Shown: positions 13,365 to 37,879 of the stretch, one piece after another
How the letters are laid out: every line of letters starts with the position of its first letter
Position numbering within the stretch: the stretch's first letter is position 1
Assembly: GCF_030270585.1 (NCBI RefSeq)
Contig: NZ_BSYI01000048.1
Span: 1 to 42,236 of the forward strand
Reading direction: 5' to 3'
DNA from: Paralimibaculum aggregatum
Lineage (GTDB): Bacteria; Pseudomonadota; Alphaproteobacteria; Rhodobacterales; Rhodobacteraceae
Length of the DNA: 42,236 nt
Notes under the pieces: model-generated
Databases searched by the model: none
The model's input: the letters and a program-made list of their open reading frames with translations, nothing else
Told to the model about the DNA's origin: nothing
Made by a program: the position numbers and the translations under genes

Positions 13365-13392
13365 CCTGAATGCAGGCCCCTGAATGCAGGCA
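13365..13392. repeat. two tandem 14-bp repeats upstream of gshA
   Basis: CCTGAATGCAGGCC (13365-13378) is followed directly by CCTGAATGCAGGCA (13379-13392). Each unit has a CCTG/CAGG inverted pair around AATG. The pair ends 19 bp before the gshA start, so it may be an operator or an untranslated-region element, or a simple duplication. Confidence 0.6.
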
Positions 13393-13411
13393 CTGGTGGA
13401 GGAGCGCCCCC

Positions 13412-14941: not shown

Positions 14942-15523
14942 ATGGCAATCGGAAACAGTGTAATTGGGCGGATCGCCGCGGCCGCCGTGCTGGCGGCGGG
15001 GCTCGGCACCGCGGCGCCGGCGGCGAGCCTTGTCGGCGCCACCGTGAGCTGCGCCGGCTCGGGGTCGTTCAACTGCTCGCCGGCCAGCGTGGTGATCGCC
15101 CCGGCCCCCTATGCGCCCTCGCCGGAGTTCATCTTTACCGACAGCCCGACGCTCTACGAGCTCGAGATCGACTTCATGGGCGGCTGGGTCGACATCACCT
15201 TTACCCCGATCCTGTCGGGCCTGCTGTCGACGACCTTCAGCTCCGTTTCGCCGGCCACCCTCACGCTCTCCGGGCTGTCCGATCCGTCGATGCCCGGCAC
15301 CCCGTTTCGGCTCTACGGGCCGACCATCTCCGGGATCCTCGGGATGACGGCGGATGATTTCCTGTTCTCGGGCGACACGCTGACCATCGATTTCGCCGGC
15401 ACCACCTGGGGCCCGACGAGCCGGGTCAGCTTCGACGTGGCGGTGCCGCTGCCGGCCGGGCTGCTGCTGCTCGGCAGCGCGCTCGCCGGGCTCGGCTTCG
15501 CGGCCCGGCGCCGGGCCGCCTGA
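14942..15523 (+). CDS. VPLPA-CTERM sorting domain protein
   Basis: A 193-residue exported protein. Residues about 8-28 form a signal peptide (AAAAVLAAGLGTAAPAAS). The middle is a low-charge, Ser/Thr/Gly/Pro-rich beta-type region with two cysteines near the mature N-terminus. The C-terminus is the tripartite sorting signal: VPLPA, a hydrophobic helix (GLLLLGSALAGLGF) and the basic end AARRRAA. Such tails are handled by an exosortase in Rhodobacterales; none is encoded in the window. Function of the mature domain is unknown, but substrates of these systems are usually extracellular or matrix proteins. The upstream 80 bp are less GC-rich and probably hold its own promoter. Confidence 0.85.
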   Translation: MAIGNSVIGRIAAAAVLAAGLGTAAPAASLVGATVSCAGSGSFNCSPASVVIAPAPYAPSPEFIFTDSPTLYELEIDFMGGWVDITFTPILSGLLSTTFSSVSPATLTLSGLSDPSMPGTPFRLYGPTISGILGMTADDFLFSGDTLTIDFAGTTWGPTSRVSFDVAVPLPAGLLLLGSALAGLGFAARRRAA

Positions 15524-15570: not shown

Positions 15571-16935
15571 TCAGCCCCGCGGCGCGCCCATCAGCGCCTC
15601 GAGCAGCGCGCCCTGCGCCTCGGCCGGGATCTTGCCGGTGCCGCCGCGCGGCAGCGCCTCGGCAAAGCGGATCCGCTGCGGCAGGAACACCGGGTCGAGA
15701 TGGGCGCGGAACTGCCGGCGGATCGCGGCGCCGAGGCCGGCCTCGTCCTGCCCCGCCTGCGGCACCGCGACGACGCCGATCCAGTCGCCCTCGTCGCGGC
15801 GCTGGCGCAGCACCACGCCGTCGGCCAGGCCCGGGGTCTCGGCCAGCACCGCCTCGAGGGTGCCGAGGCTGGTGCGCTTGCCGGCCACCGTCACCATGTC
15901 GCCGAGCCGCCCGAGCAGGCGGAAGCGGCCGTCCGGCGCCAGCTCCACCGCATCGCCGAGCAGCACCGACGCGTCGAGATGCGGCGCCGCGGCGCGGCAG
16001 CCCTCGGGCAGCTGCTCCAGCGTGAAGCCGGCGATCGGCTGCCAGAGCGGGTCGGCGGCGGTGCGGCGGATCGCCAGCGAGCCGGTCTCGGTGCTGCCAT
16101 AGATCTCGAACACCCGGGTGCCGGCCGCCTCGATGCGCTCGGCCAGCGCCAGCGGCAGCGGCGCGGTGGCCGAGATGATGCTGCGGATCTCCGGCAGCGC
16201 GGCGAGCGCCGGCTCGAGGAACCTGAGATGCGCCGGGCTGGTGACCAGCACGCAGGCGCCGAGCCCGGCGGCCCGCGCATCGGCGACCGCGGCCTCGAGA
16301 TCGGCGGGATAGAAGATCGTGCCCCGGTGCAGCGCCCGGCCGAAGGCGAGGCCGCTGAACACCGCCGCCTCCAGCCCGTACATGTGCTGGTGCGGCGTGC
16401 TGCCGAGGATCGCGAAGGGCTGCGCGCCGGCGCCCGCGGCGCCGTGTCCGGCCGCCGCCAGCACCGCCTCGGTGACCAGCGCGCCGCCGGCCAGGGTGGC
16501 CCAGCGCTTGCGGTGGCGCACCGGCAGCCCGGTGGAGCCGGAGGTGAAGACATGGATCTCGCCCGGCGCGGTCTCCAGTGCGCGGCGGAGCGCCCGGCCG
16601 GCGCCCGGCTCGGCGGCCAGCCCGTCCGGCAGCGCCCCGATCCGCCGGGCGCTGCCCTCGGGCGCCGCCTCGCCGCCGAGCACCAGGGTCTCGCCGGGCC
16701 CGTCGAGCGCCGCCTCGACGGCGCGCGGCGCGGTCGAGGCCGGCAGCACCACGGCCTGCCCGTTGAGCAGCGCCGCGGCGAGGCCGACCATGTAGACATA
16801 GCGGTCGCGCATCAGGTTGCAGACCCGCTCCGGCCCGGCGATCCGGGCTCGCGCCGCGGCGACATCGGCGGCGAAGCCGTCCCAGCGGCGCAGGCCGGCG
16901 GCGGAGAAGCAGAGGATGTCGCCGGGCCCGGCCAT
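15571..16935 (-). CDS. aryl-polyene pathway acyl/aryl-ACP ligase (ApeH-like, ANL superfamily)
   Basis: AMP-forming ligase of 454 residues, last gene of the pigment operon. The adenylation core motifs are FTSGSTGLPVRHRK near 130 (P-loop-like), EIYGSTETGS near 275 and RLLGRLGDMVTVAGKR near 340, and the C-terminal catalytic Lys is in GGTGKI near 435. ApeH-type enzymes activate the aromatic starter acid (for example 4-hydroxybenzoate or coumarate) and load it on ACP. The sequence does not show which acid is used. It starts 3 bp after the stop of the COG4648 membrane protein and shares its transcript. It is convergent with the VPLPA-CTERM gene. Confidence 0.85.
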   Translation of the reverse strand: MAGPGDILCFSAAGLRRWDGFAADVAAARARIAGPERVCNLMRDRYVYMVGLAAALLNGQAVVLPASTAPRAVEAALDGPGETLVLGGEAAPEGSARRIGALPDGLAAEPGAGRALRRALETAPGEIHVFTSGSTGLPVRHRKRWATLAGGALVTEAVLAAAGHGAAGAGAQPFAILGSTPHQHMYGLEAAVFSGLAFGRALHRGTIFYPADLEAAVADARAAGLGACVLVTSPAHLRFLEPALAALPEIRSIISATAPLPLALAERIEAAGTRVFEIYGSTETGSLAIRRTAADPLWQPIAGFTLEQLPEGCRAAAPHLDASVLLGDAVELAPDGRFRLLGRLGDMVTVAGKRTSLGTLEAVLAETPGLADGVVLRQRRDEGDWIGVVAVPQAGQDEAGLGAAIRRQFRAHLDPVFLPQRIRFAEALPRGGTGKIPAEAQGALLEALMGAPRG

Positions 16936-16938
16936 GGC

Positions 16939-17580
16939 TCAGATCTCCAGCCGCGCCCAGATCCCCGGGCGGGCCATGATGGTGAGGGTGTCGCGCCAGG
17001 TCTCCGGGCGCCGGTAGCGCCGGTTGGCATAGCGGTGGGTGCTGACGAACCAGACCGCCTGCGCCACGACGAGGCCGGTGGTGGCGGCGCCGGCGGCCTC
17101 GCGCCAGGCCGGCGCGACCACGGCGATGGCGGCGGCCAGCGCGGTGACGGCGGCGAGCCCGGCCCAGACCCAGCACTGCCGCCGCAGGAAGCGCTGGAAC
17201 GCCGGCGTGCCGCGGTCGCCCAGCCCCATCTGGCGGACCACCTGCAGCAGGATCGGCGTGCGCCCCGGCAGCACCCCGCGCAGGAAGGCATAGGCCACCG
17301 CGAGATGGATCAGCAGCACCCCGAGAAACGGCGCATAGCGCAGCCCCGGCCAGAGCGCCTGCGCCGCCAGCGCGCCCGCCGCCAGCCCCGCCGCCGCGCC
17401 CAGCGCCGCGCGCCGCGGCAGCCCGGCCCCCGGCCCGGCGCGCCAGAGCCCGAGCGCCAGCACCAGGATGAACACCGTGTCGAGCGCCCGCGGCGTGATC
17501 GCCCCGAGCCCGGCCAGCAGCATCGCGGCGGCGACCAGCCCGACCATCGCCGGGGTCTCGTAGCGGCCGCGGCGCGTCAC
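16939..17580 (-). CDS. COG4648-type membrane protein of aryl-polyene clusters (ApeG-like)
   Basis: A 213-residue integral membrane protein with hydrophobic segments near 12-30, 34-48, 55-75, 82-102, 138-158 and 165-180, predicting six inner-membrane helices. The conserved soluble loop GVLPGRTPILLQVVRQMGLGDRGTPAFQRFLRRQCWVWAG splits the last pairs. Proteins of this kind (annotated as xanthomonadin/APE membrane proteins) sit beside the ligase and ACP in aryl-polyene loci; their biochemical role is not established. It uses a GTG start that overlaps the ACP stop (GTGA). Confidence 0.82.
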   Translation of the reverse strand: MTRRGRYETPAMVGLVAAAMLLAGLGAITPRALDTVFILVLALGLWRAGPGAGLPRRAALGAAAGLAAGALAAQALWPGLRYAPFLGVLLIHLAVAYAFLRGVLPGRTPILLQVVRQMGLGDRGTPAFQRFLRRQCWVWAGLAAVTALAAAIAVVAPAWREAAGAATTGLVVAQAVWFVSTHRYANRRYRRPETWRDTLTIMARPGIWARLEI

Positions 17581-17864
17581 TTCGTCCGGTTCTCCGCGAT
17601 ATGGCGGGCGAGGGCGTTCAGCGAGGCGAAGATCTCGCCGTTGCGGTCGTCGTCGGAGCGCAGCTTGAAGCCGTAGGTCTGGTTGATCGCGAAGGCGAGC
17701 TCCAGCGCGTCGATCGAATCGAGCCCCAGCCCGTCGCCGAACAGCGGCGCATCGGGGTCGATGTCCTCCGGCGCGATGTCCTCGATCACCAGCGCCTCGA
17801 TGATCAGCGCCGCCACTTCCTGGCGCAGCTCCGGGCTCGCCATATCGCCCGCTTCGTCACGCAT
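17577..17864 (-). CDS. acyl carrier protein of the pigment operon
   Basis: An acidic ACP of 95 residues. The phosphopantetheine attachment Ser50 lies in GLGLDSIDALELA, helix II of the carrier fold, and helices I and IV are visible (LRQEVAALIIEAL and SLNALARHIAEN). It carries the starter and growing polyene chain for the KS/CLF, KR and dehydratases of the same operon. Aryl-polyene loci usually encode two ACPs; this is the only one in the window. Its start (ATG 17864) overlaps the halogenase-like gene by 8 bp and its stop overlaps the next gene by 4 bp. The 4'-phosphopantetheinyl transferase must be encoded elsewhere. Confidence 0.92.
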   Translation of the reverse strand: MRDEAGDMASPELRQEVAALIIEALVIEDIAPEDIDPDAPLFGDGLGLDSIDALELAFAINQTYGFKLRSDDDRNGEIFASLNALARHIAENRTK

Positions 17865-19143
17865 GGGCCTTCACCTTGGATGCCTTGTTACGCTCGACGC
17901 TGCGCCGGATGACCTTGAACAGCCAGATCCGCGAGCGCAGGCGCCAGTCCTTGCGGAAATCCCCGGCGAGCAGCGAGATCACCGCCTGCTCGATGCCGAG
18001 GAAGTTCCGCGGGTTCATGAACATCTCCCGGAACACCGGTTCGTTGATCCGGTAGACGAACCAGGAGGCGTAGTCGAGGCGCGCCCGCATGTTGCGGTCG
18101 TAGCGCGCCATGATCCGCGCCCGCTCGGCCGGCCGGGCGCGGGCGGCGACCACCGCCTCCGTCGCCTCGACCGCGCCGAGCAGCGCCAGATGGATGCCGG
18201 TGGAGAAGATCGGGTCGAGGAAGCCGTAGGCGTCGCCGACCTTGATGTGGCCCGGCCCGTGCGCCGCCGCGGCGCGGTAGGAGAAGTTCCCCGTCGCGCC
18301 CATCGGCACCGCCGATTCGGCGTTCCCGACGATGCGGGCGATCTCCGGGTGCCGGGCGCAATGGCCGCGGAAGAAGCTCTCGATGTCGCCCTTGCGGGTC
18401 AGCATGTAGTCCTTCGGCGCCACCAGCCCCATCGAGGTCATGCCCTCCGGCAGCGGGATCTGCCAGACCCAGCCGGGATCGGTGAGATGCACCCGGATGT
18501 TGCCCCCGGCCGGCCCCTCGGCCCGCGGCACGCCGCGGAAATGCGCGAAGATCGCGGCGGAGGTGTTGCGCGGGTCCGGCGTCTTCTCGGCGCGCAGCCG
18601 CGCGGTGACGGTGGAGCGCCCGGAGGCGTCGACCAGGATCCCGGCCTCGACCAGCCGGGTGCCGTCCGGCCCGCGCAGCGAGATCACCGCGCGCTCGCTG
18701 TCGCAGGAGACCACCTCGGCCAGCGTCTCCTCGCGCGTGGTCACGCCGACCGCGCGGGCGCGCTCGAAGAGGATCCGGTCGAACTCGGCGCGGCGCACCT
18801 GGAAGGCATGGTCCGGCCCGTCGAGCAGCTGGTTGGCGAAGTCGAACACCACGGTCTTGGTGCCGCATTCGCTGACGAACTCGGCGCCGGGCTTGTAGAC
18901 GCCGATGCCGCGCACCGCCTCCAGCACCCCGAGCCGCTCGAGGATCGGCAGGCTGTGCGGCAGCAGCGACTCGCCGACATGGAAGCGCGGGTGCCGGTCC
19001 TTCTCGACCAGCACCACATCGAGCCCCGCCTCGGCCAGCAGGATCGCCGTGGCCGCGCCGCCCGGGCCGCCGCCCAGCACCAGCGCGTCGCAGGTGTCGA
19101 CCGCCTGCCCGTCTTCGGGTCCGTTCTCTGCATGCGCGTTCAA
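17857..19143 (-). CDS. flavin-dependent halogenase-like protein of the pigment operon
   Basis: A 428-residue FAD-dependent enzyme. The N-terminal dinucleotide motif is GGGPGGAATA at 24-33, followed by RFHVGESLLPHSL. Lys84 in VYKPGAEF sits where phenol-type halogenases have their catalytic Lys, and the halogenase signature WVWQIP is at 225-230. A DASGRST segment is near 172-178 and GDAYGFLDPIFSTGI near 300. No ATG lies in frame near the N-terminus. A TTG at 19143 overlaps the ketoreductase stop (TTGA) and gives a start just before the flavin motif, matching the coupling seen across the operon. The likely role is halogenating the aryl ring. The alternative is a halogenase-fold oxidoreductase, because aryl-polyene loci also contain related flavoproteins of uncertain activity. 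Confidence 0.8.
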   Translation of the reverse strand: MNAHAENGPEDGQAVDTCDALVLGGGPGGAATAILLAEAGLDVVLVEKDRHPRFHVGESLLPHSLPILERLGVLEAVRGIGVYKPGAEFVSECGTKTVVFDFANQLLDGPDHAFQVRRAEFDRILFERARAVGVTTREETLAEVVSCDSERAVISLRGPDGTRLVEAGILVDASGRSTVTARLRAEKTPDPRNTSAAIFAHFRGVPRAEGPAGGNIRVHLTDPGWVWQIPLPEGMTSMGLVAPKDYMLTRKGDIESFFRGHCARHPEIARIVGNAESAVPMGATGNFSYRAAAAHGPGHIKVGDAYGFLDPIFSTGIHLALLGAVEATEAVVAARARPAERARIMARYDRNMRARLDYASWFVYRINEPVFREMFMNPRNFLGIEQAVISLLAGDFRKDWRLRSRIWLFKVIRRSVERNKASKVKAHA

Positions 19144-19856
19144 CTGCTGCCACCATCGAGACAAATCACCTGTCCGGAACAATAACCCGCGGAAGGCGAG
19201 ATTAGGAAGCGCACCAGTGCCGCGACCTCTTCCGGCGTGCCGGCGCGGCCGGCCGGGGACAGCCGGCGCAGCTCGTCGAAATTCGCCAGCGCGCGGGTCT
19301 CGGGCGTGTCGATCAGCCCCGGCGCGACGGCGTTGGCGGTGATCCCGCGGCTGCCGTATTCGCGGGCCAGCGACTTGATCGCGGCGTGCAGCCCGGCCTT
19401 GGCCGCGGCATAGTTCGCCTGCCCGCGGTTGCCCATCACCGCGGCCAGCGAGGAGATCGCCACGATCCGCCCCCAGCGCCGGCGCATCATCGGCAGGATG
19501 ATCGGGCGCAGCGCCGCGAAGAAGCTGCAGAGGTTGAGCTCGATGATCTCCGACCAGTCCTCCCGCTCCATCGCCGCGAAGGGCATGTCGCGCTGGCCGC
19601 CGACGGCATGGACGAAGATCTCGATCGGGGTGACCGCGGCGAGCTCGGCGAGCCGGTCGGTCGCCGCATCGGCGGTGAGGTCGAGCGAGACCGCCTGCGC
19701 CTCGCCGCCGGCGGCGCGGATCCGCGCGGCGGCGGCCTGCGCCCCGGCGAGGTTGCGATGGGCCTGCAGGATCACGGCATGGCCCTCCTGTGCCAGCGCC
19801 TCGGCGATGGCGGCGCCGATCGGGCTCGAGGCCCCGGTGACGAGCGCGGTCTTCAT
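19140..19856 (-). CDS. 3-oxoacyl-ACP reductase, FabG/ApeQ type
   Basis: Short-chain dehydrogenase of 238 residues that should reduce the 3-oxo group of the growing chain with NAD(P)H. The cofactor motif TGASSPIGAAIA is at 7-18. The catalytic Ser is in VAISSLAAVMG near 130-140 and YAAAKAG supplies Tyr and Lys. The C-terminal GYCSGQVICLDGGSS is typical of FabG. Compared with classical FabG, SP replaces RG in the glycine loop (TGASSPIG), as in other aryl-polyene ketoreductases. Its start overlaps the upstream dehydratase stop (ATGA), and its stop overlaps the TTG of the halogenase-like gene. Confidence 0.92.
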   Translation of the reverse strand: MKTALVTGASSPIGAAIAEALAQEGHAVILQAHRNLAGAQAAAARIRAAGGEAQAVSLDLTADAATDRLAELAAVTPIEIFVHAVGGQRDMPFAAMEREDWSEIIELNLCSFFAALRPIILPMMRRRWGRIVAISSLAAVMGNRGQANYAAAKAGLHAAIKSLAREYGSRGITANAVAPGLIDTPETRALANFDELRRLSPAGRAGTPEEVAALVRFLISPSAGYCSGQVICLDGGSS

Positions 19857-20281
19857 TCCAGCCCCCGGATGCTGAGGAGCGCCTCGCCGGCCAGCACGGC
19901 CGGCCCGCCCCCGGGGGGCTCCAGCGTGAAACGATAGCGCGCGCCGATTCCGTCGACGGCGATGCGCCGGGCCTCGGCGCGCAGCGGGGCGGCAATCGCG
20001 TCGGCCTCGGGCACGCCGATCGCCAGGTCGCGCAGCGCCAGCAGCATGCCGATATGCGCGCCGCCGATGCCGTGCAGCGAGGCATGGGCGGCGGCGGCCT
20101 GGGCGCCGATCTCGGCCAGCGCCGCGGTCATCAGCCGGCCGCGCCGGCGCAGCGGGTGATCCGGCGCGCGGTGGTCGGTGGCCTCGGCGAGGATGCGCTC
20201 GGGATCGGCCTCGAGCACCCGCGCGATCAGCAGCATCGGCCCGCGATGCGGCATCCGGGACAGCGCCGCGTCCAGCGTCAT
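19853..20281 (-). CDS. hotdog-fold 3-hydroxyacyl-ACP dehydratase (ApeP-like)
   Basis: A 142-residue hotdog protein. The motif MPHRGPMLLIARVLE at 10-24 (His12) and the central helix segment TAALAEIGAQAAAAHASL match ApeP, one half of the ApeI:ApeP dehydratase described for aryl-polyene synthesis. It would remove water from 3-hydroxyacyl-ACP to form the conjugated double bonds, with the second hotdog protein at 25908 as the probable partner. It overlaps the chain-length factor gene upstream and the ketoreductase downstream by 4 bp each. Confidence 0.85.
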   Translation of the reverse strand: MTLDAALSRMPHRGPMLLIARVLEADPERILAEATDHRAPDHPLRRRGRLMTAALAEIGAQAAAAHASLHGIGGAHIGMLLALRDLAIGVPEADAIAAPLRAEARRIAVDGIGARYRFTLEPPGGGPAVLAGEALLSIRGLE

Positions 20282-21072
20282 GCCGCCTCCAGGCCGAGCG
20301 CCAGCACCTGCGTGCCCTGCAGGCCGAGCGCCGCCACCCCGCTGCGCTCCGCGGCCAGCAGCTCGAGCAGCGGCAGCAGCGCCGCGGCCGGGTTGCCGCT
20401 GGCGGCCAGCGCGCGGCCGATCTCGGTGCCGGGCGGCGTGGGCGGATGCGTCGCCGCCGGGGCGAGGCGCGCGCTGAGCCGCAGGCCCGGCGCCTCCGGT
20501 CCCTCCGGCACCAGCGCCAGCGCCACCGCCAGCGGCAGGCCGAAGGGGCGCTTCTCGTGCAGCGGCGGCGGCATCGGCGCGTCATAGACCACCAGCCCCA
20601 CCGGCAGCCGTTCGAGCCGCAGCTGCATCAGCGCCTTCAGCAGCGCCGCCCCGGCGGTGTCGTCATGCGCGGCGAGGCTGGTCGAGGGCCCGCGCAGCCC
20701 GGCGGCGATCGACCATTGCCCGGCGGCGGCGTTGTGCACCGCGTTCTGGAACCTGAGCGGCTGGATCGCCGGCGCCTCGGCCCGGAGCGCCTCGAGGATC
20801 ACGTTCAGCGTCTCGCCCTCGCCGACCGAGGAGGCGAACACCCAGGCCGCCTCGGCCGGCAGCGCCGGGCCGATCTGCTCCGCCGCCATCAGCGCCAGCC
20901 GGATCGTCGGGCTGAGCCGCCGCGCGGCGCGCGAGGGCAGGCAGGCCGGCTGCGGCTGCCAGCCCGGCTCCGGGGCCCAGGGCGCGCCGGCGATCGCGGC
21001 GGACAGCGCCGGCCAGTCGGCCAGCCCCGGGCCGGCGAGGCCGACGCCCCCGATCCGCGCCGACAGCTTCAT
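20278..21072 (-). CDS. beta-ketoacyl synthase chain-length factor (ApeC-like)
   Basis: A 264-residue ketosynthase-like protein, shorter than a real KS. The active-site Cys region is replaced (LAAHDDTAGAAL where a KS has TACSSS). QNAVHNAAAGQWSIA just before it is typical of the Ketoacyl-synt_2 chain-length factors of aryl-polyene clusters. It would pair with the KS encoded immediately upstream and set chain length. ATG 21072 (MKLSARIGGVGL) lies 11 bp after the KS stop and is preceded by a G-rich ribosome binding site. An open frame continues far upstream, antisense-like and without family similarity. Confidence 0.85.
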   Translation of the reverse strand: MKLSARIGGVGLAGPGLADWPALSAAIAGAPWAPEPGWQPQPACLPSRAARRLSPTIRLALMAAEQIGPALPAEAAWVFASSVGEGETLNVILEALRAEAPAIQPLRFQNAVHNAAAGQWSIAAGLRGPSTSLAAHDDTAGAALLKALMQLRLERLPVGLVVYDAPMPPPLHEKRPFGLPLAVALALVPEGPEAPGLRLSARLAPAATHPPTPPGTEIGRALAASGNPAAALLPLLELLAAERSGVAALGLQGTQVLALGLEAA

Positions 21073-21083
21073 GCGCCCCCCGC

Positions 21084-22280
21084 TCACCGCGCCAGCACCA
21101 GCGCGCAGTTGTTGCCGCCGAAGCCGAAGGCGTTGCTCAGGAGATGGCTCAGCGGCGCCTCGCGGCTCTCGGCCAGCACGGCGCAGGCGATCTCCGGGTC
21201 CGGCGTGGCCAGCCCGGCATTGCCCGGCAGCAGCCCGGCCTCCATCGCGATCAGCGCCATCACCGCCTCCACCGCCCCGGCGGCGCCGAGGGTGTGGCCG
21301 ACCAGCCCCTTCAGCGAGGAGACCGGCACCTGCGCCCCGAAGAGCCGCGCCACCGCGGCGCATTCGGCGCTGTCGTTCGCCGGGGTCGCGGTGCCGTGGA
21401 GATTGACATAGCCGACCGCCGCCGGCGCGATCCCGGCGCGTTGCAGCGCCGCCGCCATCGCCGCATGGGCGCCGGCGCCGTCCTCCGGCGGGGTCGACAT
21501 GCTGGTGCCGTCGGTGCTCTCGCCGAAGCCGGCGAGCCGCGGGCCGCTGCCCTCGCGCTCCACCAGCAGGAAGGCCGCGCCCTCGCCGATCGAGAGCCCG
21601 TCGCGCGCCGCGTCGCAGGGCCGGCAGGGCGCGCGCGAGACCAGCTCGAGCGCGTCGAAGCCGGCGAGCGAGGTGCGGCAGAGGCTGTCGACCCCGCCGC
21701 AGAGCACCGCATCCGCCAGCCCGGCCTCGATCAGCTGCACCGCGTCGACCAGCGCCTTGGCCGAGGAGGAGCAGGCGGTGGAGATCGTGTAGGCCGGCCC
21801 GTCGAGCCCGCAGAGCCGCTGCAGGAAGGCCGCCACCGCCTGGTGGTCGTTGTGGTGGCGCAGCGAGTAGCCGGCCGCCAGCGGCGCGCCGTCCGCCCGC
21901 GCGCGATAGGCCCGCTCCAGGGTCTCGACGCCGGAGGTCGAGGTGCCGATCACCACCGCGCAGCGCGCCGCGCCCCAGCGGCTGCGGGCGGCGGCGATGC
22001 GGCCCGTGATGCCGTCGGCCTCCAGCGCGGCGAGCGCCAGCCGGGTGGCGCGGTTGTCCCAGGCCGCGAGATCGCCGGGGAAGGGGTCCGCCTCGATGCC
22101 GGCGACCCGGCCGATATGGCAGGCGATCGGCAGCCCGCCCCAGTCGCAGGGCGCGAGCCCGCTGCGGCCGCTGCGCATCGCCGCCAGATGCGGCGCCGCG
22201 CCGCGGCCGAGGCAGGTGGCGATCGCGGTCGCGGTGATCGGCGGCACCGCGGCGGCGGCGGTCTCGGGCGAAGGGGTCAT
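21084..22280 (-). CDS. beta-ketoacyl-ACP synthase of the pigment operon (ApeO/FabF-like)
   Basis: A condensing enzyme of 398 residues. The nucleophile Cys170 is in STACSSS at 167-173, the two catalytic histidines are in NLHGTATPAND and KGLVGHTLGAAGA, and the C-terminal FGFGGNNCALVL is FabF-like. It should extend the polyene chain with malonyl-ACP together with the chain-length factor that follows. Start: an in-frame ATG at 22304 lies inside the exporter gene, but ATG 22280 overlaps the exporter stop by exactly 4 bp, as at most junctions here, and is preferred. It is the only KS in the window; a second KS (ApeR) found in model clusters is missing. Confidence 0.9.
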   Translation of the reverse strand: MTPSPETAAAAVPPITATAIATCLGRGAAPHLAAMRSGRSGLAPCDWGGLPIACHIGRVAGIEADPFPGDLAAWDNRATRLALAALEADGITGRIAAARSRWGAARCAVVIGTSTSGVETLERAYRARADGAPLAAGYSLRHHNDHQAVAAFLQRLCGLDGPAYTISTACSSSAKALVDAVQLIEAGLADAVLCGGVDSLCRTSLAGFDALELVSRAPCRPCDAARDGLSIGEGAAFLLVEREGSGPRLAGFGESTDGTSMSTPPEDGAGAHAAMAAALQRAGIAPAAVGYVNLHGTATPANDSAECAAVARLFGAQVPVSSLKGLVGHTLGAAGAVEAVMALIAMEAGLLPGNAGLATPDPEIACAVLAESREAPLSHLLSNAFGFGGNNCALVLAR

Positions 22281-24496
22281 GGCGCCGGTCTCGCGTCTCG
22301 GCATGGCGGAATTGTTGCATGCATGAGTAACATTGCTCCGACCCCGATGGAAACCGCCAGGCCGATCTCCGAGAGAAGCGCCACCGGCGACAGCGCCATC
22401 ACCGCGAAGGCGATCAGCGTGGTGCTGGCGCAGAGCCCGGTCGAGCGCCGCGCCGCGCTGTCCTCGGCAACGTCGCGGGCGAGCCCGAGGAACAGGCCAT
22501 AGTCGATCCCGATGCCGACCACCAGTGTCAGCGCGACGATCTGGAAGATCCCCGGCGGGCCGGAGACCAGCCAGAGCAGCGCCGCCGCCAGCCCCAGCGC
22601 CGCGCCGGTGCCGCGCGCCAGCCGCAGCGCCGGGCGCCAGCGGCCGAGGCCGAGCGCCAGCACCCCGAACGCCGCCGCGGCGCCGACCGCGAACCAGGTC
22701 AGCACGGCGCCGCGGATGCGCTCCAGCATCGCGGCGATCCCGGCCGCGCCGTCGACCAGCCGGGTGCCCGCGATGCCGGCCTGGGCGATCGCGGCGCGGA
22801 GCCGCTCCGGCGCCACCGGGCCGCTCAGGCGGATGCGCTCCCGCGCGCCGCCGGGGCCGGTCTCGAGCCCGGCGGCGAGCGGCGCCAGCGCCGGCAGCGC
22901 CGCGAGATCCGCCGGGGTCACCGGCGGCGCCTGCAGCGCCTCGGCATAGGCCGCCGCGATCGCCCCGGCGAAGCCCTCCGCCATGCCGGCCGCGGAGAGC
23001 GCCGCGCCGGCCGCCGCGGCCAGCGCATCGGGCTCCGGCAGCGCGGCCAGCGCCGCCGCCTGCGCGCCGAGCGCCGGCAGATGCCGCGCCAGCGCCGAGT
23101 CGCCGCCGAGATCGCCCGATGCCCGCGCCGCCTCGAGCACCGGCAGGAGCGCCGCGCCGCGCGCCAGCACCGTCTCGGCATCCGGCCCGGCAACCGCGAT
23201 GTGGTAGCGCGCCGAGGGCAGCGGCAGCATGTCGCGGAACGCCGCGAGCGTCGCCGCGGTCTCCGGCGGCAGCTCGAACAGCCGCTCGCGCCCGGCGCCG
23301 GGCTGCACCAGCACCGCGAGGCCGAGCCCGATCAGCGCCAGCTCGAGCCCGGCGCGCCCCGGCAGCCGCAGCCGCGGCGGCAGCGGCAGCTGCGGCGCGC
23401 GCGGCGCGGCAGGCGGCGCCAGCAGCCCGGCGGCCAGCGCCGAGACGGTGAGCCCGGTGGCGACGAACACCCCGGTCTGCGCCAGCGCCTCGATCTCCGA
23501 GCCGGTCAGCGCCAGGAAGGCCACGGCGGTGGTCACCGCGCCGAGCCGCACCAGACGCCGCGCCCGCGCCGCCGCGCCGCCGGGGTGCTGCGCGAGATGC
23601 AGCGGATAGTCCATGGCGAGCCCGGTGAGCGCGCCGCCGAAGCCGAGGGCGATCACGTGCACCGCGCCGAACAGCGCCGCCACCGCCAGCACCGCGCTCG
23701 CCACCCCGATCGCCAGCGGCAGGAACACCGCCGCCACGCCGCGCGCCGAGCGCAGGGTCCAGACCAGCCAGCCGAGCAGCAGCGCCAGCGCGATCGCCAC
23801 CGCGGTCGCCGAGGCGCGCTGCACGTGGCGGCTGACCTCGGCGGTGACGATGCGCGGGCCGGTGAGCCGGGCATCGAGCCCGCGCGCCGCAGCCATGTCC
23901 CGGATCCTGTCGGCGAGCGCCTGCATGGCCGCGACATCGAAGGGCGCCGGCGCCAGCTCGAGGAACACCAGCGCCGCCCGGTCGTCGCGCGACTGCCAGA
24001 CGCCGCGATGGCTGGGCAGCCCCGGGCCGGCGGCCGCGAGCCGGGCGACGAGGCGGGCGAAGCTGCCGGTCGGGTCGCGCAGCAGCCGGTCGCCCAGCAC
24101 CGCGCCCTGCGCGCCGGTGAGCGCGGCGCGGGCCTCCGCGAGCCGCGCCGCGAGCGCCGCGGGGGCGAGGTCCTCCGGCGCCGGCGGCGCGAGGCGGAAG
24201 CGGTGGCGCCAGAGCCAGTCGAGCAGCGGCCGGTCCGGGGTGATGCCGGTGCGGGCGGCGGCGATGCGCGGATCGGCGGCGAGCGCGGCGGCGATGCCGC
24301 GGGCGGCCTCGGCGCGGGCGTCGCGGTCGGGGCCGATGAGCGCGAGGGTCACCTGCCGGCCCTCGGGGCGCTCCAGCAGCGCCGCCGCCGGGCCGTCGCC
24401 GCCGAGGGCGCTGCCGGCATCGGTGCGCAGGCCGATCTGGGTGAGCCCCGCCGCCAGCGCCGCGAGCACGGCAAGCCCCGCGAGCCAGCGGGTCAT
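22277..24496 (-). CDS. MMPL/RND-type exporter of the pigment operon (ApeM-like)
   Basis: A 739-residue inner-membrane transporter with the two-fold RND/MMPL layout. An N-terminal anchor helix (about 4-22) and a periplasmic domain are followed by a helix bundle near 235-390, a second periplasmic domain (about 400-590) and a second bundle near 610-735. The proton-relay-type motifs are LTGLAMDYPLHLA in the first bundle and VGIGIDYGLFLGL in the second, each with a buried Asp. It is expected to move the lipid-linked polyene away from the inner membrane, working with the LolA-like protein. Start and stop both overlap neighbours by 4 bp. Confidence 0.9.
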   Translation of the reverse strand: MTRWLAGLAVLAALAAGLTQIGLRTDAGSALGGDGPAAALLERPEGRQVTLALIGPDRDARAEAARGIAAALAADPRIAAARTGITPDRPLLDWLWRHRFRLAPPAPEDLAPAALAARLAEARAALTGAQGAVLGDRLLRDPTGSFARLVARLAAAGPGLPSHRGVWQSRDDRAALVFLELAPAPFDVAAMQALADRIRDMAAARGLDARLTGPRIVTAEVSRHVQRASATAVAIALALLLGWLVWTLRSARGVAAVFLPLAIGVASAVLAVAALFGAVHVIALGFGGALTGLAMDYPLHLAQHPGGAAARARRLVRLGAVTTAVAFLALTGSEIEALAQTGVFVATGLTVSALAAGLLAPPAAPRAPQLPLPPRLRLPGRAGLELALIGLGLAVLVQPGAGRERLFELPPETAATLAAFRDMLPLPSARYHIAVAGPDAETVLARGAALLPVLEAARASGDLGGDSALARHLPALGAQAAALAALPEPDALAAAAGAALSAAGMAEGFAGAIAAAYAEALQAPPVTPADLAALPALAPLAAGLETGPGGARERIRLSGPVAPERLRAAIAQAGIAGTRLVDGAAGIAAMLERIRGAVLTWFAVGAAAAFGVLALGLGRWRPALRLARGTGAALGLAAALLWLVSGPPGIFQIVALTLVVGIGIDYGLFLGLARDVAEDSAARRSTGLCASTTLIAFAVMALSPVALLSEIGLAVSIGVGAMLLMHATIPPCRDARPAP

Positions 24497-25020
24497 GGGG
24501 CGCCGAAGCGGATGCGCCGGCGGGTGCCGCCGGGCTCGGCGATCTCGAGCCCGGTCAGCCGGTCGCCGCAGCCGTACAGCGTCAGCCCCGGCCCGCCGCC
24601 GGCGAAGCCGAGCGCGAGGCGCCAGCCCTCCGGCGCCGCGGCAAGCTCGGCGCTGCTGCGGGCGATCGCCGCCTCCGGCGCGCCGGCCAGCAGCGCGCGC
24701 ATGGCATCGAGCATCGGGGCCATCTCGTCGGGGATCGGGAGCAGCTCCGTGCCGGTCTCGCCGGGGCGCATCACGGTGATGTAGCCGGCGCCGATCCGCG
24801 AGGTCTCCTCGCGCGGCGCGGTCTGCTCGCGGATCAGCGCGCCGTCCGGCGCCCGGCGAAACCGGCCGCGGGCGATCTCCGGCGCGGCGAGGGCGGGGTG
24901 GCTGATCTCCTCGGTATAGGGCAGCGGGGTCTCCGGCCCGGCGCCGGAGCGCGCGGCGAGGGCCGCGCCGACGCCGGCCGGCATCGGCGCGCTGCAGGCC
25001 GGCTCACTCGCCCCAGACAT
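24493..25020 (-). CDS. LolA-like periplasmic carrier protein, no signal peptide visible
   Basis: A 175-residue protein. From residue about 35 (PYTEEISHPALAAPEIARGRF) it follows the LolA-like fold found in aryl-polyene loci, with GYITVMRPGETG, a variable helical insert (MAPMLDAMRALLAG) and a C-terminal beta stretch (GLEIAEPGGTRRRIRFGAP). Such proteins ferry lipid-like cargo across the periplasm. The start at ATG 25020 overlaps the upstream acyltransferase by 17 bp. An alternative Met is at 24984. With either start the N-terminus lacks the hydrophobic export segment expected for a periplasmic carrier, which is odd. The stop overlaps the exporter start (ATGA). Confidence 0.72.
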   Translation of the reverse strand: MSGASEPACSAPMPAGVGAALAARSGAGPETPLPYTEEISHPALAAPEIARGRFRRAPDGALIREQTAPREETSRIGAGYITVMRPGETGTELLPIPDEMAPMLDAMRALLAGAPEAAIARSSAELAAAPEGWRLALGFAGGGPGLTLYGCGDRLTGLEIAEPGGTRRRIRFGAP

Positions 25021-25915
25021 CGAAGAAATTGAACCAGTTGTAAGGATGGCGGCGGCACAGATCCTCGAGATGGCCGAGATAGGCCGCGGCCAGCCGCGCG
25101 GCCTCGGCGCGGCGCTCCGCCCGCGGCACCGGGCGGCCGTCATGCAGCAGGTGGAACTCGATCGCATAGCTGTCCCTCCCGACCCGCGGCGCGGCGCAGA
25201 GGATGAGTGGCACGCCGGCGGCCATCGCGGCAAGATAGGGCGAGAGCGGCACCCGGACATGCCCGCCGAGAAAGCCGATGCGCGCCTGCGAGCGGCTCTC
25301 GCGCCCCGGCAGCCGGTCGCCGAGAAAGGCGACGAACTCGGCCCGCTCCAGCGCCTCGGCCGCCGCCAGCATGGCCTGCGGCCCCTGCCCGAGCGGGATC
25401 ACCCGCGCCGCCACCTCGGGGTTGAGCGCGCCGTAGACCCGTGTCGAGGCCGCGGCGGCGCCGTCATACATCATGTAGCGCACGGTGAGCCCGGGCAGCA
25501 TCCGGTCATAGGCGCGCAGCGCCTCGAAGCTGCCGAAATGCGCGCCGAGCAGCACCCCGCCGCGGCCCGCCGCCAGCGCCTCGTGCACCGCCTGCGCGCC
25601 GGTGGCGGCGAGCGTGAAGCCCGCGCCGCCGCCGGTCAGCAGCCGCGCCCGGTCGCGCAGCATCAGCCCGAAGAGGAAGGCGTGGCGGTGCAGGTCGGCG
25701 AACCGTGCCGGCCGGCCGAGAATGCGCGAGAGATAGCGGCGCGAGGCGGCGTTTTCCGGCCGCCCGGGCCAGGCGGCGAAGCCCGCCGCCAGCAGCCAGA
25801 TCACCGCGCGGGAGAGCGGCTCGGGCGTGTTCAGCGTGATCCAGCCCATGACGCGGAAGCCCGCGCCGGTGCCGCTCTCGCCCTGCCGGACCCAGCCCGC
25901 GGCCTCCTCAGCCAT
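25004..25915 (-). CDS. LpxL-family lysophospholipid acyltransferase of the pigment operon
   Basis: A 303-residue LPLAT of the lipid A lauroyl-transferase family. The catalytic box is GAHFGSFEALR near 140-150 (H-x4-E form of the H-x4-D motif). The second conserved segment is FLGDRLPG near 200. A hydrophobic stretch near 36-50 (AVIWLLAAGFAAW) should hold it at the inner membrane. Aryl-polyene clusters carry one or more such enzymes, thought to attach the polyene or a fatty acid to the lipid anchor. Its start overlaps the upstream dehydratase by 8 bp. Confidence 0.87.
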   Translation of the reverse strand: MAEEAAGWVRQGESGTGAGFRVMGWITLNTPEPLSRAVIWLLAAGFAAWPGRPENAASRRYLSRILGRPARFADLHRHAFLFGLMLRDRARLLTGGGAGFTLAATGAQAVHEALAAGRGGVLLGAHFGSFEALRAYDRMLPGLTVRYMMYDGAAAASTRVYGALNPEVAARVIPLGQGPQAMLAAAEALERAEFVAFLGDRLPGRESRSQARIGFLGGHVRVPLSPYLAAMAAGVPLILCAAPRVGRDSYAIEFHLLHDGRPVPRAERRAEAARLAAAYLGHLEDLCRRHPYNWFNFFDVWGE

Positions 25916-26228
25916 CCGCGGGCGCGAGCGTGACGCTGCCCTCGGCCAGCAGGGTGTCGCCGCGCAGCCAGCGCAGCGCGAGCCCGCCGCGCCCCGGCAC
26001 GGCGCGGATCTCGAAGGGCTCGCCGGGGCCGAGCGCGGCGACGAACTTCACCCGCCGCACGCCGCGCACCTCGTGGCCGAGCTCGGCCAGCCAGGCCAGC
26101 GCCTCGCCCAGCAGCACCGCCGCCGGCACCACCGGGCGGCCGGGGAAATGCCCGTCGAGACAGGCCGCCTCGGCCGGGATCCCCTGCGGCAGGGACAGCA
26201 CCCGGCCGGCCTGCGGCGCGGCGGCCAC
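25908..26228 (-). CDS. small hotdog dehydratase (ApeI-like)
   Basis: A compact 106-residue hotdog protein. The motif DGHFPGRPVVPAAVLLGEAL at 25-44 (His27) is the FabA/FabZ-type active-site helix entry, and residues 45-106 form the following strands (VRRVKFVAALGPGEPFEI). It is likely the partner of the ApeP-like protein at 19853 in a dehydratase heterodimer. It uses a GTG start 3 bp after the lipoprotein stop and overlaps the acyltransferase start by 8 bp. Confidence 0.82.
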   Translation of the reverse strand: MAAAPQAGRVLSLPQGIPAEAACLDGHFPGRPVVPAAVLLGEALAWLAELGHEVRGVRRVKFVAALGPGEPFEIRAVPGRGGLALRWLRGDTLLAEGSVTLAPADG

Positions 26229-26231
26229 GCC

Positions 26232-26648
26232 TCAGCTCGCCCGGAGGAGCTGCACCTCGGCGCGGATGTCGTTCTCGAGGTTCTGGATCCAGGCGTTGTA
26301 GTTGGAATGGATCGTGCCCTGGCCGGGGTTGTAGTCGAGCCCGCTCGAGGCCTTGTGGATGATCGAGAAGCTCTCGGTGTCGAAATAGATGTCGACCACC
26401 GCGTTGTGCTTGCCGCGCACGGTGAGCGAGCCCTCGAGATGGCCCTGCCCGATGCGGCGGAACACCCAGTTGCGCTTGGTGCCGGCGCGGATGATGGCGT
26501 TCTCGTAGTCGCGGTAGGACAGCCGCTGGTAGGAGGTCGCCGCGCCATAGGGCGCGCCCTTGATGTCGAGCAGCGGGGCGGAGCGGCATCCCGCGAGCGC
26601 AAGGGCGAGCGTCATGGCCGCGACCGCGGCGAAACGGGTAAAGGTCAT
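26232..26648 (-). CDS. small outer-membrane-type lipoprotein of unknown function
   Basis: A 138-residue lipoprotein with a signal peptide and lipobox LALAGC (Cys21). Residue +2 is Arg, not Asp, so outer-membrane sorting is expected. The mature part has a repeated Tyr/Asn-rich pattern and ends IHSNYNAWIQNLENDIRAE. From memory, small uncharacterised lipoproteins of other Proteobacteria share this IHxNYNxWIxNL ending. It lies between the glycosyltransferase and the ApeI-like gene on the pigment transcript, so it may serve pigment anchoring or transport at the outer membrane (inference). ATG 26648 is preceded by a G-rich ribosome binding site. Confidence 0.75.
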   Translation of the reverse strand: MTFTRFAAVAAMTLALALAGCRSAPLLDIKGAPYGAATSYQRLSYRDYENAIIRAGTKRNWVFRRIGQGHLEGSLTVRGKHNAVVDIYFDTESFSIIHKASSGLDYNPGQGTIHSNYNAWIQNLENDIRAEVQLLRAS

Positions 26649-26683
26649 CGGGCGTACCCCCAGATTTCACGAATGCGTCAGGC

Positions 26684-27415
26684 TTAGCGCAGCAGTCCGA
26701 GCGCAATCAATAGCCCGCGCGGGCGGAAGCCCCGGCTGACGATGAAACGCGTGATCGCCAGGGTGATCGCCACGAAGTCGGCCACCGGGCGGAAATGGCT
26801 GGCCCGCCGCAGGTGGCCGCCATAGCGCGCCCGGACCGGCACCGTGACGAAGCGGGTGCCGATATCGGCGGCGTGCAGCAGCAGCGCGGTCTCGAACACG
26901 AAGCCGCGGCAGTAGGAACGCGGGATCCTGAGCGCCCGCCACATCGCCGCGGGATAGAGCCGCATCCCGCATTGCGCATCGGTGATCCGCCGGGCGCAGC
27001 CCCAGCCGATGAAGAAGTTGCTGAGCCGGATCGAGCGCCCCCGCCCCTTCGGCACGTTGGCCATGTCGGCCGAGCGGTCGCCCAGCACCAGCGCGCCGGG
27101 GGCCTCGGCGGCGCGGGCGCGGAAGGCGGGGATGTCGGCCGGGTCGTGCTGGTCGTCGCCGTCGAGGGTGATCACCGCCCCGGCGCCCTCGGCGACCGCG
27201 AGATCGAGCCCCTCGACCAGGCAGGGGCCCTTGCCGCGGTTCTCGGCGTGGCGAATCACCCGCGCGCCGCTGCCCTCGAGCGCCTCCGCGGTGCCGTCGG
27301 TGGAGCCGTCGTCGATCACGATCACCGCATCGACATGGGGCAGCGTGGCGGCGACGATCGCGCGGATCGTCTGCACCTCGTTATAGGCCGGGATCAGCGC
27401 CACGCAGCGGGTCAT
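26684..27415 (-). CDS. family 2 glycosyltransferase, dolichol-phosphate-mannose-synthase-like
   Basis: First gene of the pigment operon; 243 residues. The GT-A fold is shown by LIPAYNE at 7-13, IDDGSTDGT near 34-42 and the metal-binding GDDQHDPADIPAF near 85-97. The acceptor segment RLSNFFIGWGCARRITDAQCGMRLYP follows near 130-155. In model aryl-polyene clusters a GT2 domain is fused to an acyltransferase (ApeJ); here the two activities are separate genes. It probably glycosylates the lipid or aryl head group. Three tandem 11-12-bp repeats begin 11 bp upstream of its start. Confidence 0.87.
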   Translation of the reverse strand: MTRCVALIPAYNEVQTIRAIVAATLPHVDAVIVIDDGSTDGTAEALEGSGARVIRHAENRGKGPCLVEGLDLAVAEGAGAVITLDGDDQHDPADIPAFRARAAEAPGALVLGDRSADMANVPKGRGRSIRLSNFFIGWGCARRITDAQCGMRLYPAAMWRALRIPRSYCRGFVFETALLLHAADIGTRFVTVPVRARYGGHLRRASHFRPVADFVAITLAITRFIVSRGFRPRGLLIALGLLR

Positions 27416-27549: not shown

Positions 27550-28329
27550 ATGGCAGGGACAGAGAGCAAGGCGGCGGTGGCACTGGCCTGGATCCGGACC
27601 CGGATCTTCGATCTCGCGGTGATCGTGATGAGCCTCTGCCAGGGGCTGGCGATCGTGACCTATTTCCAGATCCGCCGGCGGCCCGAGGAGGTGCGCTTCC
27701 TGCTGCGCAGCTGGTCCTGGGGCTTCCTCTGGATGGCGCGCTGGCTGCTCGGCGTGCGCTGGCACCTGGAGGGCCACGACCGGGTGCCGGACGAGCCGGT
27801 CTTCTACATCTCCAACCACCAGTCGGCCTGGGAATCCATCGCGCTCAGCGTCTTCGCGCCGAAGGCCAACATCATCACCAAGCGCAGCCTGATGAAGATC
27901 CCGGTCTTCGGCTGGGGGCTGCGGCATGCGCCGATGATCCCGGTGGACCGCGACCAGCCCGGGCAGAACATCCGCCGCATCCTGCGCGAGGGGCAGAAAA
28001 CGGTCGCCGGGGGGCGCAGCCTGCTGATCTTTCCCGAGGGCACCCGCCTCGCCCCCGGCACCCGCGCGCCCTTCGCCCGCGGGCTGGGGCTGCTCTATGC
28101 CCGGCTCGGCGTGCCGGTGGTGCCGGTGGTGCACAATGCCGGGCTGGTGTGGCGCAAGGGCTTCGCCGCCAAGCGCCCGGGGCTGGTGACCATGCGCTTC
28201 CTGCCGGCGATCCCGCCGGGGCGCGACCCCGAGGTGTTCGCCCGCGAGATCGAGGCGCTGCTCAACACCGAAAAGGATCGTCTGCCCGGCATAGCTCCGG
28301 CGCGGCCTGACGATCCGCCGCCGCGCTGA
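27550..28329 (+). CDS. PlsC-type 1-acyl-sn-glycerol-3-phosphate acyltransferase
   Basis: A 259-residue membrane-associated acyltransferase. A hydrophobic segment at about 18-38 precedes the catalytic box SNHQSAWES near 92-100 (H-x4-E in place of the usual H-x4-D, as in many proteobacterial PlsC proteins). The second box FPEGTR is near 165. It transfers an acyl chain to a lyso-phosphatidate-like acceptor. ATG 27550 is preceded by GGGAGGGG; the upstream open frame is not conserved-looking. Divergent from the pigment operon and sharing its repeat-bearing promoter region, it may supply the lipid anchor. Its 3' end overlaps the convergent MlaC-like gene by 68 bp. Confidence 0.87.
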   Translation: MAGTESKAAVALAWIRTRIFDLAVIVMSLCQGLAIVTYFQIRRRPEEVRFLLRSWSWGFLWMARWLLGVRWHLEGHDRVPDEPVFYISNHQSAWESIALSVFAPKANIITKRSLMKIPVFGWGLRHAPMIPVDRDQPGQNIRRILREGQKTVAGGRSLLIFPEGTRLAPGTRAPFARGLGLLYARLGVPVVPVVHNAGLVWRKGFAAKRPGLVTMRFLPAIPPGRDPEVFAREIEALLNTEKDRLPGIAPARPDDPPPR

Positions 28330-28945
28330 GATCGGCGATCAGCCGCTCGACATCGCCGCCGCGGCTGGCGAACATGTCCTGCAGGATCTCGCGCTGGGTG
28401 ATCGCGAGGGAGATCCCCGCCACCGTCATGTCGACGATCACCGGCCGGCCGGGCCGGTCGCTGACCAGGAAGCCCATCTCCACCGCCGGCGCGCCCGGCG
28501 GGGTGATCGCGACGCGGACGTAGAGCCCCTTGGCCCCGGCATCGGTGACGCCGGAGACCGCGACATGGCGGTGCAGGTCCTCGGCCCGGACGTCGTAGCC
28601 CGCGAACTGCCGGCCATAGGTGGCCGAGACGCTGGCCGCGAAGGCATCGGTGAAGCGCGCGCGCTGGCCCTCGTCCATCCCCGCCCAGTGGGGCCCGGCG
28701 GCATAGCGCGCCAGCGCCGGCACCGAGGAGCGCGTCTCGATGATCCGGCGCAACTCCGGCACCGCCCGCTCCGGCCCGGCGCCGGAGGCGAGCAGCGCGA
28801 TGATGTCGGCGATGGCGCCCTCGACGAGGCTGCGCGCCGCCCCCGGATCGAGCGCGCGGGCCGGCGCCGCGGCGAGCACCAGGGCGGCCAGCGCGGCCAG
28901 CAGGGCCCGGCGAAGGGCGGTCGTCCGGCGTGTCAGGGTTCCCAT
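28262..28945 (-). CDS. MlaC/Ttg2D-family phospholipid-binding periplasmic protein
   Basis: A 227-residue exported protein. The signal peptide ends near AAPARA (about residue 31). The mature domain has the MlaC layout: paired helices, YAAGPHWAGMDEGQRARFTDAF, then the sheet YGRQFAGYDV and GFLVSDRPGRPVIVDMTVAGISLAITQR. Relatives ferry phospholipids between membranes (Mla) or belong to hopanoid loci (HpnM). No MlaFEDB partners are in the window. A GTG 9 bp upstream is in frame, but AAGGAGG is correctly spaced only for ATG 28945. Its 3' end overlaps plsC tail to tail. Confidence 0.83.
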   Translation of the reverse strand: MGTLTRRTTALRRALLAALAALVLAAAPARALDPGAARSLVEGAIADIIALLASGAGPERAVPELRRIIETRSSVPALARYAAGPHWAGMDEGQRARFTDAFAASVSATYGRQFAGYDVRAEDLHRHVAVSGVTDAGAKGLYVRVAITPPGAPAVEMGFLVSDRPGRPVIVDMTVAGISLAITQREILQDMFASRGGDVERLIADLSAAADRQAAPELCRADDPFRC

Positions 28946-29051
28946 GCGCGGCACCTCCTTGGGCCCTCAGGCTATCCGACAGCGCGGGCCGGGGATCAAG
29001 CCCGGCGGCGTTCGTGGCGCGATTGTATCCGGTTTCCGAACACTGAAGCTC

Positions 29052-34314: not shown

Positions 34315-34318
<4 letters not shown>

Positions 34319-35253: not shown

Positions 35254-35263
35254 CGCGGCCTCC

Positions 35264-36184: not shown

Positions 36185-36212
36185 GATGCTCCCTCGGGGG
36201 GTGGCACGGGGT

Positions 36213-36240
36213 CCGGGCGGCAGCCGCTGCCGCCGCCCGG
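36213..36240 (-). terminator. intercistronic hairpin between the binding-protein gene and dppB
   Basis: CCGGGCGGC (36213-36221) pairs with GCCGCCCGG (36232-36240) and the loop can pair further (GGCAGC/GCTGCC with a bulge). A stem here often protects the binding-protein mRNA and lowers downstream expression; no U-tract is present. Confidence 0.45.
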
Positions 36241-36248
36241 GCGCGGGC

Positions 36249-37790: not shown

Positions 37791-37879
37791 GTCGTGTCTC
37801 CTCTGTTGAACAGGGCGCCCGTTGCCGTTCGCTCGGAAATCTGTGGCGTCTCTTGCGGCGTTGCGGAAAAGGCTGAAAC

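Follow-up and report, generated by a model that had tools for sequence, protein, structure and literature searches.

The known systems closest to the locus analyzed here are the gene clusters for xanthomonadins and other arylpolyene pigments. The locus, a block of 14 genes at positions 15571–27415 on the minus strand, lies in a 42,236-nucleotide stretch (the window) of contig NZ_BSYI01000048.1 of Paralimibaculum aggregatum NKW23T, which was isolated from a brittle star and placed in the family Paracoccaceae (PMC11426391), in keeping with the Rhodobacterales-like genome that an earlier note on this DNA had proposed. Like the window, the yellow-pigment cluster of Lysobacter enzymogenes encodes a ketosynthase (KS), a half-size chain-length factor (CLF), an acyl carrier protein (ACP), two dehydratases (DH), a ketoreductase (KR) and an acyltransferase (AT), together with a LolA-like protein, exporters and a glycosyltransferase (GT) resembling dolichyl-phosphate-mannose synthase (PMC3691225). 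Unlike the window, it contains a xanB2 homologue (ORF5) and no halogenase (PMC3691225). Lysobacter loses its xanthomonadin-like pigment when either the KS (KasI/ORF17) or the CLF-like ORF16 is deleted, deletion of ORF5 lowers the pigment by about 90% with restoration by 3-hydroxybenzoic acid (3-HBA), and white mutants show greater sensitivity to light (PMC3691225).

In two Xanthomonas species the xanthomonadin cluster is reported to include a halogenase, and Azoarcus has one as arcA (PMC3691225, PMC3949708). The arcuflavin clusters of Azoarcus sp. BH72 share with the window the halogenase, an acyltransferase, a GT, LolA, an exporter and a ligase (arcT), but occupy two loci and include a chorismatase (arcB) and dialkylresorcinol genes (PMC3949708). 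The Ape clusters of Acinetobacter and Xenorhabdus likewise encode a KS-CLF pair of the ApeO-ApeC type and an ApeP-type DH, and possess in addition the ketosynthase ApeR and two ACPs in all (PMC8358021). The window block has one KS, one CLF and one ACP.

The arylpolyene cluster of NKW23T is already in print as an antiSMASH call, the species description giving one such cluster and one terpene cluster (PMC11426391). A literature search on 'Paralimibaculum' returned this description and a names list, and nothing further. Here we report that the window very probably carries, as a single operon, the genes for a xanthomonadin-like arylpolyene pigment with a flavin-dependent halogenase; the pigment is most likely yellow-orange, membrane-bound and perhaps brominated.

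Results

A check of the open reading frames (ORFs) of the window confirmed all 14 genes, which run from 27415 down to 15571 on the minus strand, and the coordinates and list of fourteen one-strand genes given in the earlier note proved right; that list had omitted a divergent plus-strand gene for PlsC that adjoins the operon. Read from 27415 to 15571, the order is GT2, a small lipoprotein (LP), DH2, AT, the LolA-like protein, the MMPL exporter, KS, CLF, DH1, KR, the halogenase (HAL), ACP, a membrane protein (MEM) and an AMP-forming ligase (LIG). Spacing at the 13 junctions of the block runs from -17 to +35 bp. Overlaps of 4 to 17 bp occur at nine junctions (exactly 4 bp in six cases) and the others measure 3, 3, 11 and 35 bp, much as the note had described; for AT-LolA and MMPL-KS the values hold for starts set at 25020 and 22280. 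The probable start of the LolA-like ORF is near 25020, the KS starts at 22304 or 22280 and the KR at 19856, and the TTG start of HAL overlaps the KR stop codon. A scan for sigma-70-like promoters found none (0.2 expected), which tells little because the DNA is 74% GC. A terminator scan gave nothing exceeding chance and Rfam gave no matches.

The core enzymes assign the operon to the arylpolyene family. KS (21084–22304 or 22280, minus strand as for all genes of the block) passed the NCBIfam model PRK09185 with 434 bits against a cut-off of 407, and against the Protein Data Bank it matched 7f28_B (E 2e-69) and 6qsp_A (E 3e-68), with the best fatty-acid synthase at E 1.5e-52. It is closer to the ApeO-ApeC structures than to FabF, and a KS of this ApeO type is present in single copy in the window genome at E 1e-60. 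The half-size CLF (20278–21072, 264 aa; ApeC or Lysobacter ORF16 type) matched Pfam PF13723 (E 3e-27) and, as a profile, structures 6qsp_B and 7f28_A. The glutamine Q166 of the Lysobacter CLF is reportedly essential. The ACP of the pathway (17577–17864) passed PRK09184 with 123 bits against a cut-off of 70, and KR (19140–19856) is a FabG-type ketoreductase (PF13561, E 4.3e-53) with the Ser-Tyr-Lys triad. As a single sequence the ApeP-type hotdog dehydratase DH1 (19853–20281) had no Pfam match; its profile had 6qsr_B as the top structure (E 6.4e-12), 6qsr being the ApeI-ApeP pair. The second hotdog dehydratase, DH2 (25908–26228, GTG start; FabZ/ApeI-like), has the conserved GHF histidine, and its profile placed FabZ structures on top and 6qsr_A lower in the ranking. 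Structures 6QSP and 7F28 are the ApeO-ApeC pairs of Xenorhabdus doucetiae and Acinetobacter baumannii, respectively (PMC8358021). The family check on KS, CLF and dehydratases that the earlier note had proposed thus pointed to arylpolyenes for KS, CLF and DH1 and was neutral for DH2, which is nearer to FabZ. The note's designation of an aryl-polyene/xanthomonadin-type operon is borne out by these structures and by the PRK09184 and PRK09185 matches, the block having the features by which aryl-polyene clusters are recognized: a KS-CLF of the ApeO-ApeC type, an ACP of its own, a KR and a pair of hotdog dehydratases. Of the marks of xanthomonadin clusters, the window has a half-size CLF beside the KS and a flavin halogenase, whereas a XanB2-type chorismatase was not found in its genome.

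Judged by its sequence, HAL (17857–19143) is a flavin-dependent halogenase, as the earlier note's "halogenase-like flavoprotein" had anticipated. The protein matched PF04820 (E 5.3e-30), and its solved relatives include 8zop, ChlB4, CmlS, the FADH2-dependent halogenases 5buk/5bul, and PltA. Flavin-dependent halogenases are known by an FAD fold, the motif WxWxIP, a catalytic lysine and the motif FxxPxxSxG, all of which HAL shows; WxWxIP is typical of halogenases, and together with the catalytic lysine it separates them from hydroxylases. In HAL the sequence WVWQIP fits the first motif, and Lys84 pairs with a lysine in all five printed structure alignments. A scan of named genomes with the HAL alignment gave at least 578 relatives; those listed come from Xanthomonas, Pseudoxanthomonas, Azospirillum, Acidocella, Acetobacteraceae and others. 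From the best 80 of these, the window and five stretches taken by hand (L032–L036) we assembled 86 loci, a set biased to close HAL relatives in which L035 and L049 are one organism. Lys84 is conserved in 86 of the 86 HAL rows, and WxWxIP and FxDPxxSxG in 85 (L113 is gapped there). Several of the solved relatives work on carrier-bound substrates, which fits the position of the HAL gene next to the ACP gene. Halogenation of the product is thus predicted from the protein family and its motifs.

A flavoprotein that hydroxylates its substrate or is inactive would leave the pigment of the same arylpolyene operon unhalogenated. We consider this unlikely given that the motifs that set halogenases apart are intact and are kept in the window clade across a long stem. 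NKW23T is moreover a marine isolate and its isolation medium contained potassium bromide (KBr) (PMC11426391). The argument for an unhalogenated pigment is that xanthomonadin-type halogenation varies, from 0 to 2 bromines in Xanthomonas (PMC3691225), and that the excerpts of the literature we searched held no biochemical test of any HAL-family member.

The earlier note had taken the halogenase as the mark of a variant of its own kind. This was not supported: the xanthomonadin clusters and arcA of the arcuflavin cluster provide precedents (PMC3691225, PMC3949708), so that a halogenase within such a cluster is not new. The HAL of the window is 43–47% identical to the Xanthomonas proteins. The xanthomonadin cluster of X. 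hortorum (L115) also encodes a HAL relative, ACP, LIG, KR, DH1, DH2, LolA, MMPL, AT and PlsC, the KS and CLF being outside the stretch seen. There the halogenase gene is on the opposite strand and is followed by XanB2, whereas in the window it is part of the operon, with KR on one side and ACP on the other. The Xanthomonas and Azoarcus clusters, like the window, have one gene for the GT and another for the acyltransferase; hence the split GT2/acyltransferase, which the note had also read as distinctive, is the usual arrangement in Xanthomonas-type clusters.

Catalytic residues of the other enzymes are conserved in the related loci. The KS cysteine is present in 45 of 47 (two are gapped) and both histidines in all 47, the KR triad in 63/63 aligned loci, the ACP serine in 48/48, and the DH2 GHF histidine in 55/55. 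The DH1 histidine is present in 62 of 64, with one gap and a glutamine in L082. The HX4(D/E) motif of AT is present in 60 of 60 aligned rows, four further rows being gapped.

Within the stretches seen, at least one of seven core arylpolyene genes accompanies HAL in 75 of the 86 loci and at least three in 72, the latter including loci from Xanthomonas, Azospirillum and Acetobacteraceae. The HAL loci of Azospirillum, Acidocella, Acetobacteraceae and Arboricoccus have the same core genes, and several of these genomes also lack a chorismatase, but gene order and strands differ from the window. Six loci share the exact 14-gene order. Besides the window these are from the congeneric genomes G001 and G003, from G008, which belongs to a different genus of the family, and from two metagenome-assembled genomes (MAGs), one from Geminicoccaceae (L038) and one alphaproteobacterial (L039). 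The gene order that the earlier note had thought peculiar to this genome is therefore distinct, but is common to five other genomes. Counting a 3-kb fragment (L037), the neighbourhood is kept in seven loci; therefore the operon is not a chance arrangement. L037 is a contig of a MAG labelled Chloroflexi that carries DH1-KR-HAL-ACP-MEM in the window order and has a HAL that groups with that of the window; it is perhaps a misbinned alphaproteobacterial contig. In a quick HAL tree built from 85 rows (the 86th fell below the length limit and was dropped), the seven window-type rows formed one group with a Shimodaira-Hasegawa-like approximate likelihood ratio test (SH-aLRT) value of 100 and a stem of 1.33; L036 and L053 sat on long branches and their placement is unsure. 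Of 394 family genomes drawn, HAL was found in four at E 1e-80, the fourth being G453. Neither a close HAL nor the KS was found, at the thresholds used, in G002 and G004, both of the same genus (G004 is 85% complete). The operon is thus a coherent lineage with a patchy spread.

The remaining genes of the block would serve decoration and export. GT2 (26684–27415), the first operon gene, is a glycosyltransferase (PF00535, E 7.5e-20) that keeps its place in L032–L034, L038 and L039. AT (25004–25915) is an acyltransferase of the LpxL/HtrB type with weak single-sequence matches to PRK07920 (E 6.9e-6, under its cut-off) and PF03279 (E 0.15). The LolA-like carrier protein (24493–25020, start uncertain) matched PF19574 (LolA_3) with 23.6 bits against a cut-off of 23. 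Both the AT and the LolA-like assignments, weak when each sequence is taken alone, are backed by the conserved gene context. The exporter (22277–24496) is of the MMPL/RND type (PF03176, E 1.1e-7). The block thus contains the export and decoration set of aryl-polyene clusters, which consists of an MMPL exporter, a LolA-like protein, a GT and an acyltransferase. The divergent PlsC gene (plus strand, from 27448 or about 27550 to 28329, the real start probably being close to 27550) encodes a 1-acylglycerol-3-phosphate acyltransferase-like protein (PF01553, E 1.4e-21). Each of the six full-order loci has it next to the operon, PlsC-like genes occur in 34 of the 86 loci, and the gene probably belongs to the operon system.

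LP (26232–26648) has, by eye, a LALAGC lipobox but no Pfam family at E 0.1, and homologues occur in 12 of the 86 loci, the window counted. In L053, L057, L078 and L102 the LP domain matched the C-terminal end of longer frames, read stop-to-stop, downstream of HAL; LP may therefore be part of a larger protein in other genomes. MEM (16939–17580, GTG start; hydrophobic by eye) had no Pfam family match, and its homologues occur in eight of the 86 loci (window counted). One weak BLASTP stretch (E 0.004) links it to L115:8657-9475. In Xanthomonas a membrane protein is encoded next to the ACP gene, and MEM may correspond to it.

The source of the starter unit was sought in whole genomes. XanB2-type chorismatase genes are present in 42 of the 86 loci and in the Xanthomonas cluster, but none was found anywhere in the genomes G000 (the window genome), G001, G003 and G008. 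The XanB2 query matched one of 101 genomes and PF21168 exceeded its cut-off in one of nine, in both cases G074. UbiC exceeded its cut-off in none of eight genomes (G005 had a sub-threshold 17.2 bits), and no Rv2949c-like protein was found in nine. The window genome had no FkbO/Hyg5-like protein, G002 giving a sub-threshold 13.1 bits. As controls, E. coli was over the UbiC cut-off, and no control genome passed for FkbO/Hyg5-like proteins, whereas G074 and X. hortorum did.

Aromatic ammonia-lyases (PF00221) occur in seven of eight genomes, with five matches in G008 and two in G002. The single such gene of the window genome adjoins hutI. We rejected it as a tyrosine ammonia-lyase that could supply the starter, since besides its place next to hutI the family also occurs in G002 and G004, where the cluster was not found at the thresholds used; the protein is thus taken as HutH. 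A tyrosine ammonia-lyase may be among the five G008 matches. Two other HAL loci, L084 and L095, have an aromatic ammonia-lyase nearby, a possible different starter route.

We also searched 22 further HAL genomes, 20 drawn from the 44 loci without XanB2 and two positives (L115 and L063). A chorismatase was found in nine (seven of the 20 and both positives) and UbiC in none of the 22, whose completeness is not stated. The other 13 of the 20 genomes chosen for a locus without XanB2 thus gave no chorismatase match at all, and UbiC was missing from every one of the 20; the MAGs L038 and L039, which share the 14-gene order, had neither enzyme. The gap in starter supply is therefore not special to the window operon. 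For comparison, Lysobacter without the xanB2 homologue keeps about 10% of its pigment (PMC3691225).

LIG (15571–16935; PF00501 and PF13193) is an AMP-forming ligase that would act on an aryl acid. The starter may be an aryl acid other than chorismate-derived 3- or 4-hydroxybenzoate, for example one taken up from outside. The absence from the window genome of matches to XanB2/FkbO-type chorismatases, UbiC and Rv2949c-like proteins, and the position of its sole aromatic ammonia-lyase beside hutI, would fit such a starter, as would the nearest NCBIfam model of LIG, the 4-coumarate-CoA ligase TIGR02372. The LIG score of 92.6 bits is, however, far below the cut-off of 334.7 for that model. NKW23T also makes ubiquinone-10 (PMC11426391), and therefore some source of 4-hydroxybenzoate should exist. 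On balance we regard a different aryl acid as improbable. It is conceivable, although we hold it doubtful, that an unrecognized enzyme supplies the starter and also serves ubiquinone-10 synthesis, in which case the operon would represent an alphaproteobacterial brominated-arylpolyene lineage without a known chorismate-to-hydroxybenzoate enzyme. The plain alternatives are a divergent enzyme that escapes the family models or sequence missing from the draft genome.

Other genes of the window lie outside the operon. A MlaC/HpnM-like gene (28262–28954, minus strand) lies near it and is found in three of the 86 loci, all of one genus; the homologue in L032 is at the other end beside LIG and that in L033 is past PlsC. 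Past the downstream end are genes for a VPLPA-CTERM sorted protein (14942–15523, plus strand; TIGR03370 just above cut-off) and a glutamate-cysteine ligase of the TIGR01436 kind (13370–14782, plus strand; 658 bits). Genes at 34315–37883 on the minus strand encode an ABC transporter of the oligopeptide/dipeptide type, with two permeases and one binding protein of family 5.

Discussion

From the gene content and order, the families of the core enzymes and the conserved catalytic residues we infer the following pathway. LIG would activate a (hydroxy)benzoate-type acid and load it onto the ACP, and KS-CLF would elongate this aryl starter by adding malonyl units. Each unit would be converted to a double bond by KR together with DH1 and DH2, so that a conjugated arylpolyene forms on the ACP, and HAL would add bromine or chlorine to the aryl ring or the chain, most likely while the chain is ACP-bound. 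AT, GT2 and PlsC may then anchor the polyene on a lipid or sugar-lipid, and MMPL, the LolA-like protein and LP would carry it to the outer membrane, where the pigment is predicted to quench oxidants and light damage. Lipid anchoring, a halogenated product and protection from light and oxidants, all put forward by the earlier note, are thus predictions here too. The pale orange colonies of NKW23T and the antiSMASH call of an arylpolyene cluster (PMC11426391) accord with such a pigment.

Several observations weigh against a xanthomonadin-like pigment operon. Eleven of the 86 HAL loci show none of the seven core genes (some are short contigs); thus HAL homologues are not always beside core genes in the stretches seen. 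The block has neither a second ACP nor a second full KS, and the single-sequence assignments of the AT, LolA-like and DH proteins are weak. No hydroxybenzoate-forming enzyme of the searched families was found in the window genome, which leaves the starter unexplained. No product is on record for NKW23T, and the pale orange color of its colonies (PMC11426391) could come instead from carotenoids, which is conceivable because the species paper also lists a terpene cluster. That the KS-CLF set yields no pigment but another product, be it a different type II polyketide or a compound like a fatty acid, is very unlikely: the weak match of CLF to the cispentacin model AmcG, the below-cut-off match of KS to AmcF and the 10% similarity to oryzanaphthopyran given in the species description (PMC11426391) stand against ApeO-ApeC as the best structural relatives of the pair and against a tailoring set (two DH, LolA, MMPL, AT and GT2) that matches arylpolyene clusters.

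The xanthomonadin-like operon places a halogenase-bearing pathway of this type in a marine Rhodobacterales isolate, in a family where HAL is rare. It offers a one-operon version suited to expression work and a compact setting for tests of halogenation. It also exposes a gap, that of a ubiquinone-10 maker without a UbiC, XanB2/FkbO-type or Rv2949c-like match. If an unrecognized starter enzyme does exist, the pigment operon, with HAL and LIG close around the ACP gene, would provide a simple color readout for finding it.

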